Both the position numbers and the translations under genes were made by a program. Below, piece by piece: positions 54,618 to 60,936 of a DNA stretch of 64,000 bases. The DNA is from Bacteroidota bacterium. GTDB taxonomy: Bacteria; Bacteroidota; Ignavibacteria; Kryptoniales; JAKASW01. The stretch is from contig JAJZVO010000022.1 of the NCBI GenBank assembly GCA_021845665.1, positions 1 to 64,000 on the forward strand. The letters are read 5' to 3'. The notes under the pieces are model-generated. The model ran no database searches. It had not been told where the DNA came from and worked only from the letters and a program-made list of their open reading frames with translations. Numbering within the stretch: the first letter of the stretch is position 1; each line of letters begins with the position of its first letter.

Positions 54618-55613
54618 ATGTCGGAATATTGGCAGAGACTGGAAGACCTGGATACGTTTTCTATCTCATGGCGCGAGTTGAAGATTCCCCTTCACGCCGG
54701 CTTGTTCCTGATAACATTTTTCACCACTACGCTTGCGGGAGTGGATTGGATCGGAAAGGATCCTCTCAATCTTCTAAACTTCGCATACGGTTTGACCTAC
54801 AGTGTCTCGCTTCTTGCGATACTCGGATCGCATGAGTTCGGACATTTTTTCTACTCGTTGAAACATAAGGTCCGCGCCACGCTGCCGTATTTTATCCCCT
54901 TTCCATTTATTCCCGGAATGCTGAACTTCGGAACGCTAGGTGCGATCATCCGAACAAAGACCCCGGTGCCCTCCAGGAAAGCGGTCTTCGATATCGGCGT
55001 TTCCGGCCCGATAGTAGGATTCATCGTCAGCGTCGCAGTCCTTATAGTCGGCTTCACCCTTTTACCATCGCGCGAGTATATCCTTCAGATTCACCCGAAC
55101 TATAATTTCACGACGAACTCTTCCGGCGTACTGGACGGTCTTCCGTTGGCTTTTGGGAATACGATACTCTTCAAGATTCTAGAAATCATATTCACGAACC
55201 CTCACACCCAATTTGTCCCGCCGATGACGGAGATTTATAATTACCCCCTTCTCTGCACGGGATGGTTCGGACTGTTCGTGACAGCGATGAACCTTCTTCC
55301 GATCGGACAGCTCGACGGCGGTCACATGATTTACGCGATGTTCGGCAGAGCCCACAGGAAGGTCGCGCGGATATTCTTCTACATTATCCTGGCGATAGGA
55401 ATTCTCGGGCTCCTTCCGCTGGTAGGCGTTAACATCGACTTCGGATGGACCGGGTGGTTATTCTGGTCCGCGATCCTCTTCTTCGTGGTCAAGCTCGATC
55501 ATCCCCCGGTCATGGACAGCACGCCGCTCGACAAGAAAAGAATGATTATCGGGTGGCTGACGATACTGATATTCATAGTCTCTTTTTCACCGACACCTTT
55601 CACAATATCATAA
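54618..55613 (+). CDS. Site-2 protease family membrane metalloprotease (M50)
   Basis: 331 aa with about seven membrane helices. The zinc-binding HEFGH is at residues 72-76, and the third-ligand motif NLLPIGQLDGGH occurs near residue 233. This is the core of S2P/M50 intramembrane proteases, here without a PDZ domain, as in the archaeal/plant EGY-like short form. It starts immediately after the GT2 stop. Its substrate is unknown; such enzymes usually release anti-sigma factors or signal-peptide remnants. Confidence 0.9.
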   Translation: MSEYWQRLEDLDTFSISWRELKIPLHAGLFLITFFTTTLAGVDWIGKDPLNLLNFAYGLTYSVSLLAILGSHEFGHFFYSLKHKVRATLPYFIPFPFIPGMLNFGTLGAIIRTKTPVPSRKAVFDIGVSGPIVGFIVSVAVLIVGFTLLPSREYILQIHPNYNFTTNSSGVLDGLPLAFGNTILFKILEIIFTNPHTQFVPPMTEIYNYPLLCTGWFGLFVTAMNLLPIGQLDGGHMIYAMFGRAHRKVARIFFYIILAIGILGLLPLVGVNIDFGWTGWLFWSAILFFVVKLDHPPVMDSTPLDKKRMIIGWLTILIFIVSFSPTPFTIS

Positions 55614-55622
55614 GAGGCACAC

Positions 55623-56441
55623 TTGAAAAAAGTCCTCCTTCTCATCCTGCTCAGCCTGATTGTAAGCGCGTGTCAGAAAGCGAGCAACGCGGTGATCGAC
55701 AATTCAAGGCTCATCAATCCACAGCTCGCCTATTTCTCGGGCGACAGCGTAGACATCGCTTCCTACATCAACAACGACTCATCCCAACTTGTGCTGACCG
55801 ACAGCTTCAGTGTTAATGTCGATTTCCCTCAAGGGTTCAGTTACCTTATGGTGAATGTTCAGAACGATTCAAACAATATGATCGCTTCAAACCGCTACAA
55901 AACCATAGTGGACAGCACCATCAGTGGAACGATCACCTTTGCCCCGCCGAGCGTCTACGTCGGCGATCTGACTTATACTTTCACACCTTACAACCAGATT
56001 GCCGAGCCGGGTAATTCTGTATCGGCTATCGTGAAGCTATATAATTCAAAGAACTTACCTCCCATAATCGACAGCGTGTCGGCTCCCGACTCGATACAAG
56101 TAGACAGCACTCACGCCATCCTGTTTGACCTGTACGCGACTGCAAGCGATCCCAACGGGTTAAACGATATAAAGTACGTCTACTTCGACACGTTCAAGCC
56201 GGACGGCCAACCGTCGACCGGCAATCCGTTTTATATGTACGATGACGGCGGCGCGAGCGGCAATCCTGCGGACAACGACTCAGTGGCTAATGACGGTATT
56301 TACACACTGAGGGTCCAACTCCCGGCTCTTGACGCCCCTACACCACCAGCTTTAGGGACATACGTCTTCAAGTTCTATGCTGAAGACAGAAGCGGCGCGA
56401 TAAGCAAACCAGTTTCACATGATATCAAGGTATACCAATGA
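55623..56441 (+). CDS. Secreted lipoprotein with Ig-like/choice-of-anchor-type domain
   Basis: 272 aa. A type II signal peptide ends in the lipobox VSAC at residue 17, so the mature protein is lipid-anchored. The C-terminal half contains the calcium-loop-like stretch YDDGGASGNPADNDSVANDG followed by IYTLRV, and VFKFYAEDRSGAIS, an Ig-like fold seen in FCB surface proteins. TTG start with GAGG upstream. It opens a run of four genes joined by four-base overlaps; its TGA overlaps the ATG of the next gene. Confidence 0.8.
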   Translation: MKKVLLLILLSLIVSACQKASNAVIDNSRLINPQLAYFSGDSVDIASYINNDSSQLVLTDSFSVNVDFPQGFSYLMVNVQNDSNNMIASNRYKTIVDSTISGTITFAPPSVYVGDLTYTFTPYNQIAEPGNSVSAIVKLYNSKNLPPIIDSVSAPDSIQVDSTHAILFDLYATASDPNGLNDIKYVYFDTFKPDGQPSTGNPFYMYDDGGASGNPADNDSVANDGIYTLRVQLPALDAPTPPALGTYVFKFYAEDRSGAISKPVSHDIKVYQ

Positions 56442-57976
56442 GAATCACGATTGCCATTTCAATTTTGTTCTTAAGCGCCACCGCCTTCGGGCAGACCGCC
56501 ATCAGGACATACAAGCTGGACGGCGCGCCGACTCAGACGATGCCATCCAGCAACTCAGTCAGCCAGATACTGATAAAGAACGGCATAGTTTACCTCGCGA
56601 CAAACAAGGGGCTGAATGTTTCCACCAATGGTGGCGTGTCATTTCAAACCAACTGGGGAACGAACGGCCCGACTGGCGTCAGCACCAACGCTCTCGCCGT
56701 TAAAGGCGATACAATTGTTGTCGCTGCATCGACAAGCCTGAACCAGAACGGCAACTCTCTCCCGGTCGGCCAAGGGTTGTACGTTTCGACAGACAACGGT
56801 GCGACGTGGGTCCACGAGCCACAGGATGTCGACTCGACTTACGATACGACGGTCGTCTTCGGCAAGAACACGCTTCGCGCGCTCCCGATCACTACGGACG
56901 TCAACAACATTTCCTACGCGCTCGCCTTCTACGGAGGTTACCTTTATGCAGCAAACTTCGCAGGCGGCCTGAGGAGAAGCAACGACCTCGGCAAGACCTG
57001 GCACAGAGTCGTCATGCCGCCCGATTACCTGGAGTATATTACACAGAACCCCGACAGTACTTATACCTTCCAGCTGTCGCCGATAGCCGGACGACTCACG
57101 CAGGAGACAAACTACAACCACGAGGCATTCTCGCTTTACTGCGACGGGGACAGCGCACTTTACGTCGGCACCGCGGACGGCATCGACAAGACAACAGATA
57201 ACGGTTACTCCTGGCACAAGTTCAATCATCAAAACGACCCGGGGATTTCCGGCGACTTCGTCGTCTGGATAGCCGCACAGAATTACGGCGGTGTCCATAA
57301 CATATGGGCCGCGACAGTGAACGCGAACGACCCTACCGAAGTCCCGGCGCTAAGTTACACTACAGACGAAGGCGCAACATGGCAAAACATCCTGCAGGGC
57401 CATTTCTTCCACAGCATAAGTTTCAACGGTCAGATAGTCTACGGCGCGTCGGATGACGGTCTGTTCAGGGCACCAGATTTCGGCAAGTCAAGCACCGTCA
57501 TAACCAACATTTACGACCAGGCTAATCAGCAGTCGATACTCTCGAAAGCATTCTATGCAGTAGCCGCAACCGGCGATACAGTCTGGCTTGCGTCAGGCGA
57601 CGGCAATGCGATCGGCGTCGATCCAGGAACCGGCTTCATCCAGAGCGCGTGGGATGTACTGAGGACTTACGTCCCCGTCGGCACGTCGAACACCACCTAT
57701 TTTTATCCAAACCCATTCTCACCGAATCTTGACGTAGGCCGCGTACACTTCGATGTCAGGAATCCAAACAGTACCGTAACCATCAGGATATACGACTTCT
57801 CGATGCATGTCGTGCGGACTCTCCTGCAGAATGCGCCCCGGCCCACCGGTGAAACCGACGTCCCGTGGGACGGTAAGGATGATACCGGCAACCTGGTAGA
57901 TAACGGCGTTTACTTTTATAGTGTAGTTGTCAACAACAAGCCCCCGATCTGGGGAAAGATTTTGGTGGCAAGATGA
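56438..57976 (+). CDS. Secreted Asp-box beta-propeller protein with FlgD/T9SS-type C-terminal domain
   Basis: 512 aa. Signal peptide (cleavage after AFGQ near residue 19). At least five Asp-box (BNR) motifs of the form S/T-x-D-x-G-x-T/S-W are visible: STNGGVSF, STDNGATW, SNDLGKTW, TTDNGYSW and TTDEGATW, indicating a beta-propeller. The last 95 residues form a FlgD-like Ig domain beginning FYPNPFSP and ending W-GKILVAR, the form used as a type IX secretion sorting signal in FCB bacteria. Predicted surface-exposed or released. ATGA overlaps on both sides. Confidence 0.88.
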   Translation: MRITIAISILFLSATAFGQTAIRTYKLDGAPTQTMPSSNSVSQILIKNGIVYLATNKGLNVSTNGGVSFQTNWGTNGPTGVSTNALAVKGDTIVVAASTSLNQNGNSLPVGQGLYVSTDNGATWVHEPQDVDSTYDTTVVFGKNTLRALPITTDVNNISYALAFYGGYLYAANFAGGLRRSNDLGKTWHRVVMPPDYLEYITQNPDSTYTFQLSPIAGRLTQETNYNHEAFSLYCDGDSALYVGTADGIDKTTDNGYSWHKFNHQNDPGISGDFVVWIAAQNYGGVHNIWAATVNANDPTEVPALSYTTDEGATWQNILQGHFFHSISFNGQIVYGASDDGLFRAPDFGKSSTVITNIYDQANQQSILSKAFYAVAATGDTVWLASGDGNAIGVDPGTGFIQSAWDVLRTYVPVGTSNTTYFYPNPFSPNLDVGRVHFDVRNPNSTVTIRIYDFSMHVVRTLLQNAPRPTGETDVPWDGKDDTGNLVDNGVYFYSVVVNNKPPIWGKILVAR

Positions 57977-58902
57977 AAACGATAATCGTAAGTCTGCTAT
58001 TTTGCTCCGCTGCCTTTGCACAAAGCTACCCCGGGAGTTTTTCCAGAGTCGGATTGAACGCCAAGGGGATGGCTCTCGGCAATTCGATCTCGGCAATGCC
58101 GGAGGGCAACGTGTATACGTACTACAACCCTGCCCTCGCTTCATTTCAAATGGGAGGAAGCGTTTCCGGGTCGGTCGCACTCATGTCTCTCGGAAGGCAG
58201 CTGAACGTGATCACTTACACTCAGGGTTTGAAGCCCGGTGCCGGAATGTCGTTGGGCCTTATCAATGCCAATGTGACCAATATTGACGGCAGAGACGCGG
58301 ACGGAGCTCCTACGGGCAATTTCTCGACAAGCGAGTATCTCGCGTATTTCAGTTTCTCCAATGAGTTCTTTCCCGGATTCTCGCTCGGAGTAAATCTTAA
58401 GATGTACTATAACAACCTTTACTCAGGGTTGACTTCAACTGCGCTGGGATTTGATATCGGTGGGCTCTACAGGGTTACTAACGACCTATCGGTCGGCGCA
58501 GTCGTGACCGATCTCGGTGTCAAGTACCACTGGGATTCATCAACGCTGTACGGGACAGACGGCTCCAGCTTCACTTCACCTTTTCCGCACATCGTGAAGA
58601 TTGGTGCTTCGTACGACCTGCCGATAATGAATTCATGCATAACCGCCGAATACGACATCGCTCCCGGTCCTCTCAGCGGCATACACGCGGGGCTGGAAGT
58701 CTCGCCAATTTCGCTTCTCGCGCTTAGAGCCGGCTTATACACATCTAACGAGATCAACCTTGGTACCGTCGTCACGCCTTCGTTCGGCTTCGGGGCAAAG
58801 ATAGAACTCCTTGATTTTGCGCCCGAGATAAATTACGCTTATGTGTTTGAACCATTTTCTCCTTACGGGATACAGACTGTATCATTAATGTTCGGATTTT
58901 GA
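57973..58902 (+). CDS. PorV/PorQ-family outer-membrane barrel protein (first copy)
   Basis: 309 aa. A signal peptide ends near AAFAQ; the family's N-terminal motif is VGLNAKGMALGN, then YYNPALAS, followed by alternating beta strands and a C-terminal phenylalanine (LMFGF), the outer-membrane insertion signal. PorV/PorQ proteins are FadL-like barrels; PorV ferries cargo from the type IX secretion pore to the surface-attachment complex. ATG overlaps the cargo-like gene as ATGA, and the stop overlaps the next barrel gene. Confidence 0.83.
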   Translation: MKTIIVSLLFCSAAFAQSYPGSFSRVGLNAKGMALGNSISAMPEGNVYTYYNPALASFQMGGSVSGSVALMSLGRQLNVITYTQGLKPGAGMSLGLINANVTNIDGRDADGAPTGNFSTSEYLAYFSFSNEFFPGFSLGVNLKMYYNNLYSGLTSTALGFDIGGLYRVTNDLSVGAVVTDLGVKYHWDSSTLYGTDGSSFTSPFPHIVKIGASYDLPIMNSCITAEYDIAPGPLSGIHAGLEVSPISLLALRAGLYTSNEINLGTVVTPSFGFGAKIELLDFAPEINYAYVFEPFSPYGIQTVSLMFGF

Positions 58903-59813
58903 AAGACATGAAATCTATAGCGCTGGCTTTTGCCACGACTCTGCTAATCACTTCGCAGGCGTACTCCCAGGCGGGGAGCGCCGGGTTCCAGATATTGCGG
59001 CTCGGTTACTCCGCGCGCGACCTTGCGCTCTCGGCGTCTGGAGATGCTCTCTCGAATGAACCAGTGGCAGTCTATCTCAACCCGGCAGGCCTCGCCAGGA
59101 GTGAGAGCCAGGGAGGAATCGGACTTGACGTGATGCTGACACATCGAACCTACATAGCAGGGACCACTATAGACATGTTCGGTACAAGGTTTCAGGCGGG
59201 GACGATGTCGTTCGGGACAAGCCTGCTTCTTTCAAGTGTGCCGGACATCGAAGTAAGGACGGTGCCCGGAGCCGCTCAGGCGACATTTTCCGCAAAGGAT
59301 TTTGCCTTTGCTGCAGGTATGGCGAGGCGATTCGGGAACGTAGATATCGGCGTATCGGGAATGTTCCTTTATGAGAAACTCTTCGTGTATGAATCAACAG
59401 GATATGCTTTCAACGCAGGCGTCCAGTTTTCTCCACTTGAGAATACCGAAGTCGGCATTTCCGCGGGCAACCTGGGATCTTCCTCCGCTATGGTAGCACA
59501 GAAGATCGATCTTCCGGCGTACCTGCGGGCTGGCGGGAGCTATACCGCTACCATGGATAATAATTTCTCACTCACCGGCTTTCTCGGAGTCGTAACGTTT
59601 AAGTCCGGAGGAATCACTCCAAGCCTCGGCGCCGATCTGAATTTCCAGAACTTGCTCCAGCTTCGCGCCGGCTACGGATCAGGAAACGACCTGACAGGCT
59701 TTTCGTACGGAGCGGGCATTCACTACGGATTCCTGGAACTCGACTACTCCTACATACCGATGAAACTCGACTTCGGAAACAGTCAGACATTCACACTCTC
59801 TTTTCTCCTATAA
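58899..59813 (+). CDS. PorV/PorQ-family outer-membrane barrel protein (second copy)
   Basis: 304 aa. The signal peptide (SIALAFATTLLITSQAYSQ) is followed by the clearer family motif LGYSARDLALSASGDALSN, then VYLNPAGLA, and by beta strands to the C-terminus (FTLSFLL). It is a diverged paralogue of the preceding gene. The start is either TTG 58899, overlapping the previous stop as TTGA, or ATG 58908, which gives the same signal peptide. It is the last gene of the four-base-overlap run; the GT gene follows one base after the stop. Confidence 0.83.
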   Translation: MKDMKSIALAFATTLLITSQAYSQAGSAGFQILRLGYSARDLALSASGDALSNEPVAVYLNPAGLARSESQGGIGLDVMLTHRTYIAGTTIDMFGTRFQAGTMSFGTSLLLSSVPDIEVRTVPGAAQATFSAKDFAFAAGMARRFGNVDIGVSGMFLYEKLFVYESTGYAFNAGVQFSPLENTEVGISAGNLGSSSAMVAQKIDLPAYLRAGGSYTATMDNNFSLTGFLGVVTFKSGGITPSLGADLNFQNLLQLRAGYGSGNDLTGFSYGAGIHYGFLELDYSYIPMKLDFGNSQTFTLSFLL

Positions 59814-59814
59814 G

Positions 59815-60936
59815 ATGTCGGCCGGACACTTCGAACCTGACGTACTCATAATCGTCAGCTCGGATCCAAGGTACGACACGAGGAGCACAAAATTCCTTAA
59901 GACCCTTACGGAAGCCGGTCACCGGGCAATGGTAGTTGGTGTCTGTAGCGACGGCAAGAACGACGAAATGCCGGGAATTCTCCGTGTATCGGTAAATGCG
60001 AAATCGGGCAAGCGTTTCTTCAAGGAATTCTACCAGGGTGTTATCCCGCACGCATTGAAGGCATCTGCGAAAGTGGTAATTGCAGGCGATCTCTTCTCAC
60101 TCCCACCGGCAATATTGAACAAAGTCCGGCACAACCGAAAAGCATCTTCGGTTAAGCTTATCTACGACTCCAAGGAATTGTATGATGAGCTCCCGAGCCT
60201 CAAGAGAAAGAAGAGCAGTTTCGCTTTCTGGAATCTTGTGGAGAAGAGTTCGATACGATATGTAGATTCAGCTTTCACGGTGAACGATTCGATTGCGGAG
60301 ATACTCCGCCAAAGATGGATGCTGCCATTCACTGTCGTCAGGAATGTTCCGGACAGAAGCGAATCCCCGCCTGTCCAGAGAACTTTCGAGAAAATCACAC
60401 TCGCGTTCTCCGGGGGACTGCAGCCGGGACGGGGGTTACACAACCTAATCAGGCTCCTGACGTTTCTCCCCGAAAAATATCAGCTAAAAATCATAGGCGA
60501 TGGACTCCTTCGCGAGGAGCTGGAGGAACTGGCCTCGTCACTTAAGCTGACGGACAGAATTCATTTCACGGGAAGAGTCGAAAGCGGGAATGTTGTTGCC
60601 GAATTATCGATGGCACACATCGGGATATACCTTATGGAAAACTCGGGCCTATGTCACTACCTGGCATTGCCGAACAAGTTTTTCCAGTTCATATCCGCCA
60701 GATTGCCGGTTATCGTGCCTGCATTTCCGGAGATGGAGAAGATAGTAAATGGGTACGGTATCGGCGCGGCGGTTGACCCATCGGATCTGAAGCGTACGGC
60801 CGAACTAGTTTTGGAATTTACTGGCGATCGGGAATTGTACAACAAGCTGCGTGAGAACTGTGAAAAAGCCGCTCTTGAACTGAATTGGCAGGTTGAAAAG
60901 ATGAGATTCCTCGACGCTGTAGAACGGCTAATTTAG
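59815..60936 (+). CDS. GT4-family glycosyltransferase
   Basis: 373 aa, GT-B fold. The C-terminal donor domain is clear: ITLAFSGGLQPGRGLHNLI, LKIIGDGLLREELEEL, IHFTGRVESGNVV and IGIYLMENSGLCHYLALPNKFF, with the E-x7-E-like region degenerate. The N-terminal acceptor domain is diverged (LIIVSSDPRYDTRSTKFLKTL). Its position directly behind the barrel genes suggests it may glycosylate surface material, but this is only context. Its 3' end overlaps the converging sigma54 regulator gene by 9 bases. Confidence 0.82.
   Translation: MSAGHFEPDVLIIVSSDPRYDTRSTKFLKTLTEAGHRAMVVGVCSDGKNDEMPGILRVSVNAKSGKRFFKEFYQGVIPHALKASAKVVIAGDLFSLPPAILNKVRHNRKASSVKLIYDSKELYDELPSLKRKKSSFAFWNLVEKSSIRYVDSAFTVNDSIAEILRQRWMLPFTVVRNVPDRSESPPVQRTFEKITLAFSGGLQPGRGLHNLIRLLTFLPEKYQLKIIGDGLLREELEELASSLKLTDRIHFTGRVESGNVVAELSMAHIGIYLMENSGLCHYLALPNKFFQFISARLPVIVPAFPEMEKIVNGYGIGAAVDPSDLKRTAELVLEFTGDRELYNKLRENCEKAALELNWQVEKMRFLDAVERLI

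Follow-up and report, generated by a model that had tools for sequence, protein, structure and literature searches.

A widely conserved Bacteroidota gene set encoding a lipoprotein, a propeller protein with a sorting-type domain and two PorV/PorQ-family barrels

Gene content of the locus

The stretch of DNA analysed here (the window; 64,000 nucleotides of contig JAJZVO010000022.1, assembly GCA_021845665.1, designated C114 in this 4.64-Mb draft genome) comes from a member of the Kryptoniales. Among named relatives, metagenome-assembled 'Bacteroidetes' and Candidatus Kryptoniota stand closest to it, and Kryptonium, Ignavibacteria and Melioribacter are more distant. The window contains four consecutive, co-directional open reading frames (ORFs) that encode a lipoprotein, a surface protein of the kind exported by the type IX secretion system (T9SS), hereafter called the cargo, which consists of a propeller and a C-terminal sorting-type domain, and two outer-membrane barrels of the PorV/PorQ family, barrel 1 and barrel 2 (Table 1). 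An earlier note, made from the sequence alone, had proposed these genes as a unit, and the ORFs, the domains of their products and the conserved gene order bear this out. The four-gene set is old and widely conserved within one phylum.

Table 1. Position in the window and supporting evidence for the four genes of the unit and the two genes that adjoin it.
Feature	Position	Strand	Evidence
Lipoprotein, outer-membrane, 272 residues; TTG start, lipobox Cys17, two immunoglobulin (Ig)-like domains (~33-140, ~148-271)	55623..56441	+	AlphaFold2, alignment, start conservation
Cargo, T9SS-type surface protein, 512 residues; signal peptide, propeller (~33-411), C-terminal Ig-like sorting domain (~420-512)	56438..57976	+	Pfam BNR and FlgD_ig, AlphaFold2, Foldseek
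Barrel 1, PorV/PorQ-family outer-membrane barrel, 309 residues	57973..58902	+	NF033709 86.3 bits, profile match to PDB 6h3i, own orthologous group
Barrel 2, PorV/PorQ-family outer-membrane barrel, 301 residues from conserved ATG	58908..59813	+	NF033709 108.7 bits, PDB 6h3i, own orthologous group
M50 membrane metalloprotease, directly upstream of the lipoprotein gene, conserved neighbour	54618..55613	+	PF02163 73.6 bits
GT4 glycosyltransferase, directly downstream of barrel 2	59815..60936	+	PF00534 58.4 bits

Conservation of the gene set

Among 61 genomes, comprising this one and its relatives, 47 possess a full-length homologue of the cargo (E 2.7e-85 or better), in a total of 48 places. At the 47 places outside the window, the stretch fetched contains the lipoprotein in 44 cases, barrel 1 in 46, barrel 2 in 45 and the M50 metalloprotease in 40, and all four genes of the unit are found in 43 of these loci; one of the others is a second cargo copy that stands alone (L067), and another lies at a contig end (L074). 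The cargo and barrel 1 genes are separated by a gap of 0.4 to 1.3 kb in three of the relatives' loci. Eighty named loci, which overlap with the 61-genome set, give the same picture: 57 of them have at least 2.5 kb on both sides, and these encode the lipoprotein (57), barrel 1 (57), barrel 2 (56) and the M50 metalloprotease (54), with all four genes of the unit in 56.

Two irregular copies of the cargo gene were observed. The solitary full-length copy at L067:6547-8547 is the second of its genome (G010) and has no lipoprotein or barrels alongside. In another genome (G009), a short copy of 235 residues lies directly before the full cargo gene (L058:5870-6577); it matches cargo residues 2-137 and 417-512, so that the central part of the propeller seems to be absent.

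In a sample of 395 genomes of the phylum, 167 have a cargo match at E 1e-30, of which 62 belong to the same class and 105 lie outside it, and the cargo is single-copy in 165 of the 167. Twenty of the 105 outside-class genomes, picked to span families, were fetched, some of the stretches ending early. The lipoprotein gene is upstream of the cargo in 18 of these 20 loci, barrel 1 is present in 18 (downstream in 15, and upstream of the lipoprotein in three), barrel 2 in 12, and an M50 gene is near in seven; every one of the 20 genomes has SprA above the cut-off. On these counts the lipoprotein, the cargo and barrel 1 form a core, and barrel 2 is somewhat less constant. The gene order of the window, which could have been unique to its contig, is thus kept across the class and, more loosely, across the phylum; it is more than chance and is not a local accident, and the basis for saying so is the conserved order itself.

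The cargo and its C-terminal domain

The Asp-box propeller and FlgD-like sorting domain that had been read in the cargo are both matched in Pfam: the Asp-box repeats by PF02012 (36.3 bits), and the C-terminal domain by FlgD_ig (PF13860, 38.4 bits). An AlphaFold2 model based on 80 sequences, with a mean pLDDT (predicted local distance difference test score) of 92.5, consists of a signal peptide, one propeller and seven C-terminal strands. By a count of strands in this model the propeller has seven blades, and the C-terminal Ig-like domain extends its seven strands from residue 421 to residue 510; sorting domains are described as seven-stranded in an excerpt of PMC12618676. The C-terminal domain is about as well conserved as the propeller, with a mean pairwise identity of 0.53 versus 0.41 to 0.58 per propeller third.

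PorZ is the top Foldseek match of the cargo (5m11, E 1.9e-14). By VIA-align, a GH74 xyloglucanase has a Z of 26.2 (root mean square deviation 3.2, 300 residues aligned) and PorZ a Z of 24.2 (deviation 3.3, 285 aligned), mostly over the propeller, and these values, which are close together among propellers, show fold and not function. The cargo was considered as the PorZ of this genome and rejected, a separate PorZ being encoded elsewhere; the model of the PorZ N-terminal propeller (PF21544) is below its cut-off in the cargo (21.6 of 27 bits), which has one propeller, not two.

The tail of the cargo fails the cut-offs for type A sorting domains (TIGR04183, 17.9 of 23 bits; PF18962, 14.5 of 27 bits, matched by five of 24 cargo homologues at E 0.01) and is below that of the type B CHU_C tail (17.7 of 27 bits). 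It matches the PorU model NF033707 over the PorU C-terminus (E 2.9e-7), and residues 1057-1139, in the C-terminal region of PorU, in PDB entry 6za2. When home-made profiles were compared, the PorU-tail profile was the best scorer for nine of ten cargo tails, which received 29-43 bits from it, 23-41 bits from the type A profile and 21-33 bits from a profile of tails encoded directly before PorV-family barrels (barrel-linked tails, below). The cargo tail is therefore nearest to that of PorU, if weakly, and an initial idea that it belonged with the barrel-linked tails was dropped because these profiles placed it nearest the PorU tails.

The barrels and the lipoprotein

Barrel 1 falls just under, and barrel 2 over, the cut-off of 90 bits for the PorV/PorQ family model NF033709 (scores in Table 1), which is matched by all 20 homologues of each barrel at E 0.01. 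Profile matches to the solved PorV structure 6h3i reach 91 bits (5.9e-25) for barrel 2 and 29.5 bits for barrel 1. Neither protein reaches the equivalog model of PorV (NF033710; 22.9 bits for barrel 1 and 44.1 for barrel 2, of 250) or of PorQ (NF033711; 59.7 and 68.8 bits, of 220). In a tree of 17 homologues of each barrel together with eight other PorV-family proteins of the same genome, among them its PorV-like and PorQ proteins, barrels 1 and 2 each constitute one group, with 100/100 support against each other, and the branch that holds barrel 2 only has a support of 98/94. As had been suspected, these are two diverged members of the family; they belong to two separate ancient groups, distinct from both PorV and PorQ. 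The PorP/SprF model TIGR03519 was not listed for either barrel of the window and is matched by two of 20 barrel 2 homologues. Identification of the barrels as BamG was also considered and rejected: a search of the genome with the BamG model NF053685 gave three hits, neither unit barrel among them, the best being encoded elsewhere (contig C66, 160.8 bits).

The lipoprotein has no named domain in Pfam or NCBIfam. Its two Ig-like domains come from an AlphaFold2 model with a mean pLDDT of 92.7, and conservation is higher in the second of them (0.41) than in the first (0.20); the lipobox cysteine is invariant in all 72 aligned sequences. A fold search returned generic Ig and fibronectin type III folds as PDB matches, and a PorE-like part was not listed in this search, which excludes nothing. 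Two or more acidic residues are present within six positions after the cysteine in 46 of the 72 sequences; acidic residues near a lipoprotein cysteine are taken as a surface signal in an excerpt of a paper on the β-barrel assembly machinery (BAM; PMC12578637).

The type IX secretion system of the genome

Away from the unit, the same genome encodes SprA (1031 bits), PorU (905.6 bits) and PorZ, together with a PorV-like protein (242 of 250 bits), PorQ (240.8 of 220 bits) and a PorV2-like protein, so that the T9SS core genes on which the earlier note made its reading depend are in place. Por_Secre_tail matches number 150 in the genome (150 of 171 type A candidates scored). Over the 61 genomes, cut-offs are exceeded for SprA in 59, for PorU in 56 and for the PorZ propeller in 53.

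As judged by the cargo and barrel 1, the unit is either there as a whole or missing altogether: in 12 genomes of the class without the cargo, a search with the barrel 1 profile gave at best 89 bits, versus 412 and 429 bits in two unit-bearing genomes. Nine of these 12, which are in the 61-genome set, have SprA and PorU over their cut-offs and a PorZ match. Because genomes of the class without the cargo and barrel 1 still keep the T9SS, the unit is accessory, and a role as a T9SS requirement was rejected.

Sorting-type domains encoded before PorV-family barrels

The neighbourhood of PorV-family barrels was also surveyed in eight related genomes, one from each of eight families, by reading the 1.7 kb upstream of the best 80 of 119 PorV-family matches (L238-L317); the unit's own barrels were left out, and the 80 are not independent. 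A gene with a C-terminal sorting-type domain directly precedes 60 of these best 80 of 119 barrel genes. Eight of the 60 are PorU before PorV, an arrangement found in all eight relatives, and without them the count is 52 of 72. The figure of 60 is partly circular, because the seed was chosen by a short motif and the profile used for rescoring was made from those same tails; chance adjacency is estimated at a few per cent, given about 150 Por_Secre_tail matches per 4.6 Mb.

Compared with NCBIfam at E 0.05, the 52 barrel-linked tails other than PorU match the PorZ C-terminus (49), TIGR04183 (43) and PorU (41), whereas 14 free type A tails of the window's own genome, picked by motif as a control, match TIGR04183 in all 14 cases and the PorZ C-terminus in three. 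Barrel-linked tails are thus a recognisable class by their match to the PorZ C-terminus (49 of 52 versus three of 14). The tail of the unit's cargo lies outside this class, though the arrangement of genes is shared, which speaks against simply adding the cargo to it.

In the window's own genome, the gene directly before a PorV-family barrel encodes a C-terminal sorting-type domain not only at barrel 1 but also on three other contigs (C75, C72 and C9); the other barrels that were looked at have no such gene directly before them. On C9 (L109:3593-10349), three genes adjoin, one for a second C25 peptidase whose tail is of the FlgD type, one for a PorV2-like barrel and a small one that is lipoprotein-like; they form another set of C-terminal domain (CTD) protein, barrel and lipoprotein.

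Gene boundaries and neighbouring genes

The earlier note had described an exact NTGA overlap at each junction of the unit, and a fixed ratio of products as the probable consequence. The overlap holds at two junctions: ATGA between the lipoprotein and cargo genes is kept in 10 of 12 same-genus loci that have the unit, and ATGA between the cargo and barrel 1 genes in all 12. The third, TTGA, requires that the barrel 2 ORF run from a TTG at 58899 to 59813, and is doubtful because this TTG is present in only four of the 12 loci, whereas an ATG situated 3 to 5 bases past the barrel 1 stop (58908 in the window) is kept in all 12. The TTG start of the lipoprotein, on the other hand, is supported by a TTG at +2 to +11 in all 12. 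A start that permits an exact four-base overlap is available in 13 of the 44 co-directional gene pairs of the window, so the overlaps say little about the unit and were rejected as evidence for it; with such overlaps common and one of three doubtful, the fixed ratio loses its basis.

Nor does the unit end at 55623 and 59813. A Pfam scan places a GT2 glycosyltransferase gene and then the M50 gene upstream of the lipoprotein gene, and the two genes farther upstream, before GT2, are presumably glnE and a gene for a large DUF2723-like membrane protein. This upstream run, the four genes and the GT4 gene are all on one strand, with gaps of 0-12 bases or overlaps, and because there are almost no gaps, more than four genes are probably transcribed together. 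Within the class, M50 is kept about as often as barrel 2 (54 of 57 loci with room); it has no evident link to the T9SS. The GT4 gene was rejected as a member of the unit: it directly follows barrel 2 in nine of 59 named loci and is constant only in the genus and order of the window. In two outside-class families, a GT4 gene again comes straight after barrel 2 (L225:11404-12438 and L227:11584-12717).

Proposed function of the unit

With a confidence somewhat better than even, we propose that the unit specifies an accessory surface complex, assembled through the T9SS, in which the propeller would be kept on the cell surface by a PorV-family barrel of its own and would have the lipoprotein as a partner. 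All four products would be exported by Sec, and recognition of the C-terminal domain would allow the propeller protein to pass the SprA translocon. Barrel 1 would then take and keep the uncleaved C-terminal domain, as PorQ does with PorZ and PorV with PorU, making the propeller a fixed part of the surface and not a released cargo. Barrel 2 would be a second, auxiliary barrel partner, and the Ig-domain lipoprotein may be a membrane-anchored partner of the propeller or of a barrel, in the position that PorE occupies towards PorP and PG1035.

Precedents are found in excerpts of the published work. PorU is held by PorV, and PorZ by PorQ (PMC5562754); the tails of PorU and PorZ stay uncleaved on PorV and PorQ, and the same review suggests that a cognate PorV-like barrel may protect a tail (PMC10202324). 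PorE, PorP and PG1035 form a complex of lipoprotein, barrel and CTD protein, in which PorP is the barrel and PG1035 a type B protein (PMC9143113), and type B substrates use PorP/SprF shuttles of their own (PMC12618676). The combination of a CTD protein and a PorV-family barrel of its own agrees with precedent and with the pairing found here for 60 of the best 80 barrels, and a retained complex of the PorZ-PorQ kind would explain the nearly single-copy co-conservation of the set better than a transport relay.

Several observations weigh against a retained complex. The argument that the tail is retained is a weak one, because the cargo tail fits no scored class clearly; it has no match to the PorZ C-terminus at E up to 1, a model matched by nearly all barrel-linked tails. 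Barrel 1 is upstream in three of the outside-class loci and was not found in two. In the lipoprotein of the window, none of the six residues that follow the cysteine is acidic, so that it may face either side of the membrane. Finally, gene order alone cannot separate partners from neighbours, because inside the class M50 accompanies the cargo about as regularly as barrel 2 does.

A relay of the kind put forward in the earlier note, in which dedicated shuttle barrels, one for each step, would take the propeller from SprA on to PorU, the sortase that would cleave and anchor it, with the lipoprotein as the final anchor, is possible and has less support than a retained pair; we regard it as unlikely. 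PorV does act as a shuttle in P. gingivalis (PMC5562754, excerpt), specialised shuttles for single type B substrates are described in F. johnsoniae (PMC12618676, excerpt), and barrels paired with CTD genes are common in the genomes surveyed here (60 of the best 80 of 119). However, a relay for one single-copy protein would need two extra barrels for no clear reason in a genome that already has a PorV-like protein and 150 Por_Secre_tail matches, and the cargo tail is nearest to that of PorU, which P. gingivalis keeps. Neither the lipoprotein as anchor nor one barrel per step is supported; for the latter no evidence was found, and outside the class barrel 2 is kept in fewer loci than barrel 1 (12 versus 18 of 20), although some of the eight loci in which it was not found are limited by their contigs.

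A third and weaker reading, which we consider improbable, is that the products form a dome on another outer-membrane machine, as in the BAM of Bacteroidota, in which surface lipoproteins, the propeller protein BamI among them, sit on the FadL-family barrel BamG. The list of parts, a FadL-family barrel, a lipoprotein and a propeller, is similar (PMC12578637, excerpt), and a nearly single-copy propeller in a conserved set would suit such a dome. Yet the propeller and the lipoprotein are separate proteins here and the propeller has a sorting-type domain at its end, some families of the class are without the unit, and the best BamG match of the genome lies elsewhere. Just as improbably, the propeller could be an exported enzyme or glycan-binding protein whose gene would be linked to its neighbours only through joint expression with cell-envelope genes (M50, glycosyltransferases), as the GH74 xyloglucanases among the closest folds (Z 26.2) and the glycosyltransferase genes that flank the unit in its own genus might suggest, but the listed GH74 chains have about 700-750 residues, of which only the first part is covered by the match, the cargo has a single propeller, GT4 follows barrel 2 in few loci, and throughout the phylum the cargo keeps the lipoprotein and barrel 1 beside it.

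A surface complex with a retained propeller would also admit a broader and more tentative view, to which we give less than even confidence: in T9SS lineages beyond the well-studied bacteria, the PorV family may have multiplied into many cognate barrels, each beside one protein whose tail is retained, and the operon may be an old member of this group, its barrel-bound propeller, second barrel and lipoprotein making up a third conserved surface complex beside PorU-PorV and PorQ-PorZ. As a putative surface module the unit is conserved and nearly single-copy, and a large part of the phylum has it; together with the pairing of PorV-family barrels and CTD genes it provides natural cognate pairs and distinguishable tail classes, with which the specificity of tails for barrels could be tested directly.

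Comparison with known systems

No description of the four-gene set was found in the literature searched, on PorV in Ignavibacteria, on the T9SS in Kryptonia, on FlgD tails together with PorV, on cargo-shuttle pairs and on PorZ/PorQ combined with a lipoprotein and a propeller. PorQ-PorZ of the Porphyromonas gingivalis attachment complex likewise combines a propeller and C-terminal sorting domain with a partner barrel of the PorV/PorQ family; in contrast, the cargo of the unit has one propeller, the operon has two barrels and a lipoprotein, and the PorZ and PorQ of the genome are separate from it. PorU-PorV resembles the unit in the tail, the cargo sorting domain being nearest to that of PorU, and in the position of a CTD gene directly upstream of a PorV-family barrel gene, but the cargo has no C25 protease domain and the unit's barrels are not PorV by the equivalog model. 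The BAM dome (BamG with BamH-K), as described in the excerpt cited above, shares a FadL-family barrel with lipoproteins and a propeller; it differs in the family of the barrel, the unit's propeller carries a sorting-type domain, and a BamG candidate is encoded elsewhere in the genome. PorE-PorP-PG1035 and SprF-SprB, to judge from the parts of the literature cited, are likewise sets of lipoprotein, FadL-family barrel and CTD protein with the barrel gene beside the substrate gene, whereas the unit has barrels of the PorV family and not of PorP/SprF, a lipoprotein of two Ig domains, and a cargo in which the type B tail is below its cut-off. Sets that join a CTD protein, its cognate FadL-family barrel and a lipoprotein are therefore known in kind, and what is new at this locus is that the set is built with PorV-family barrels.

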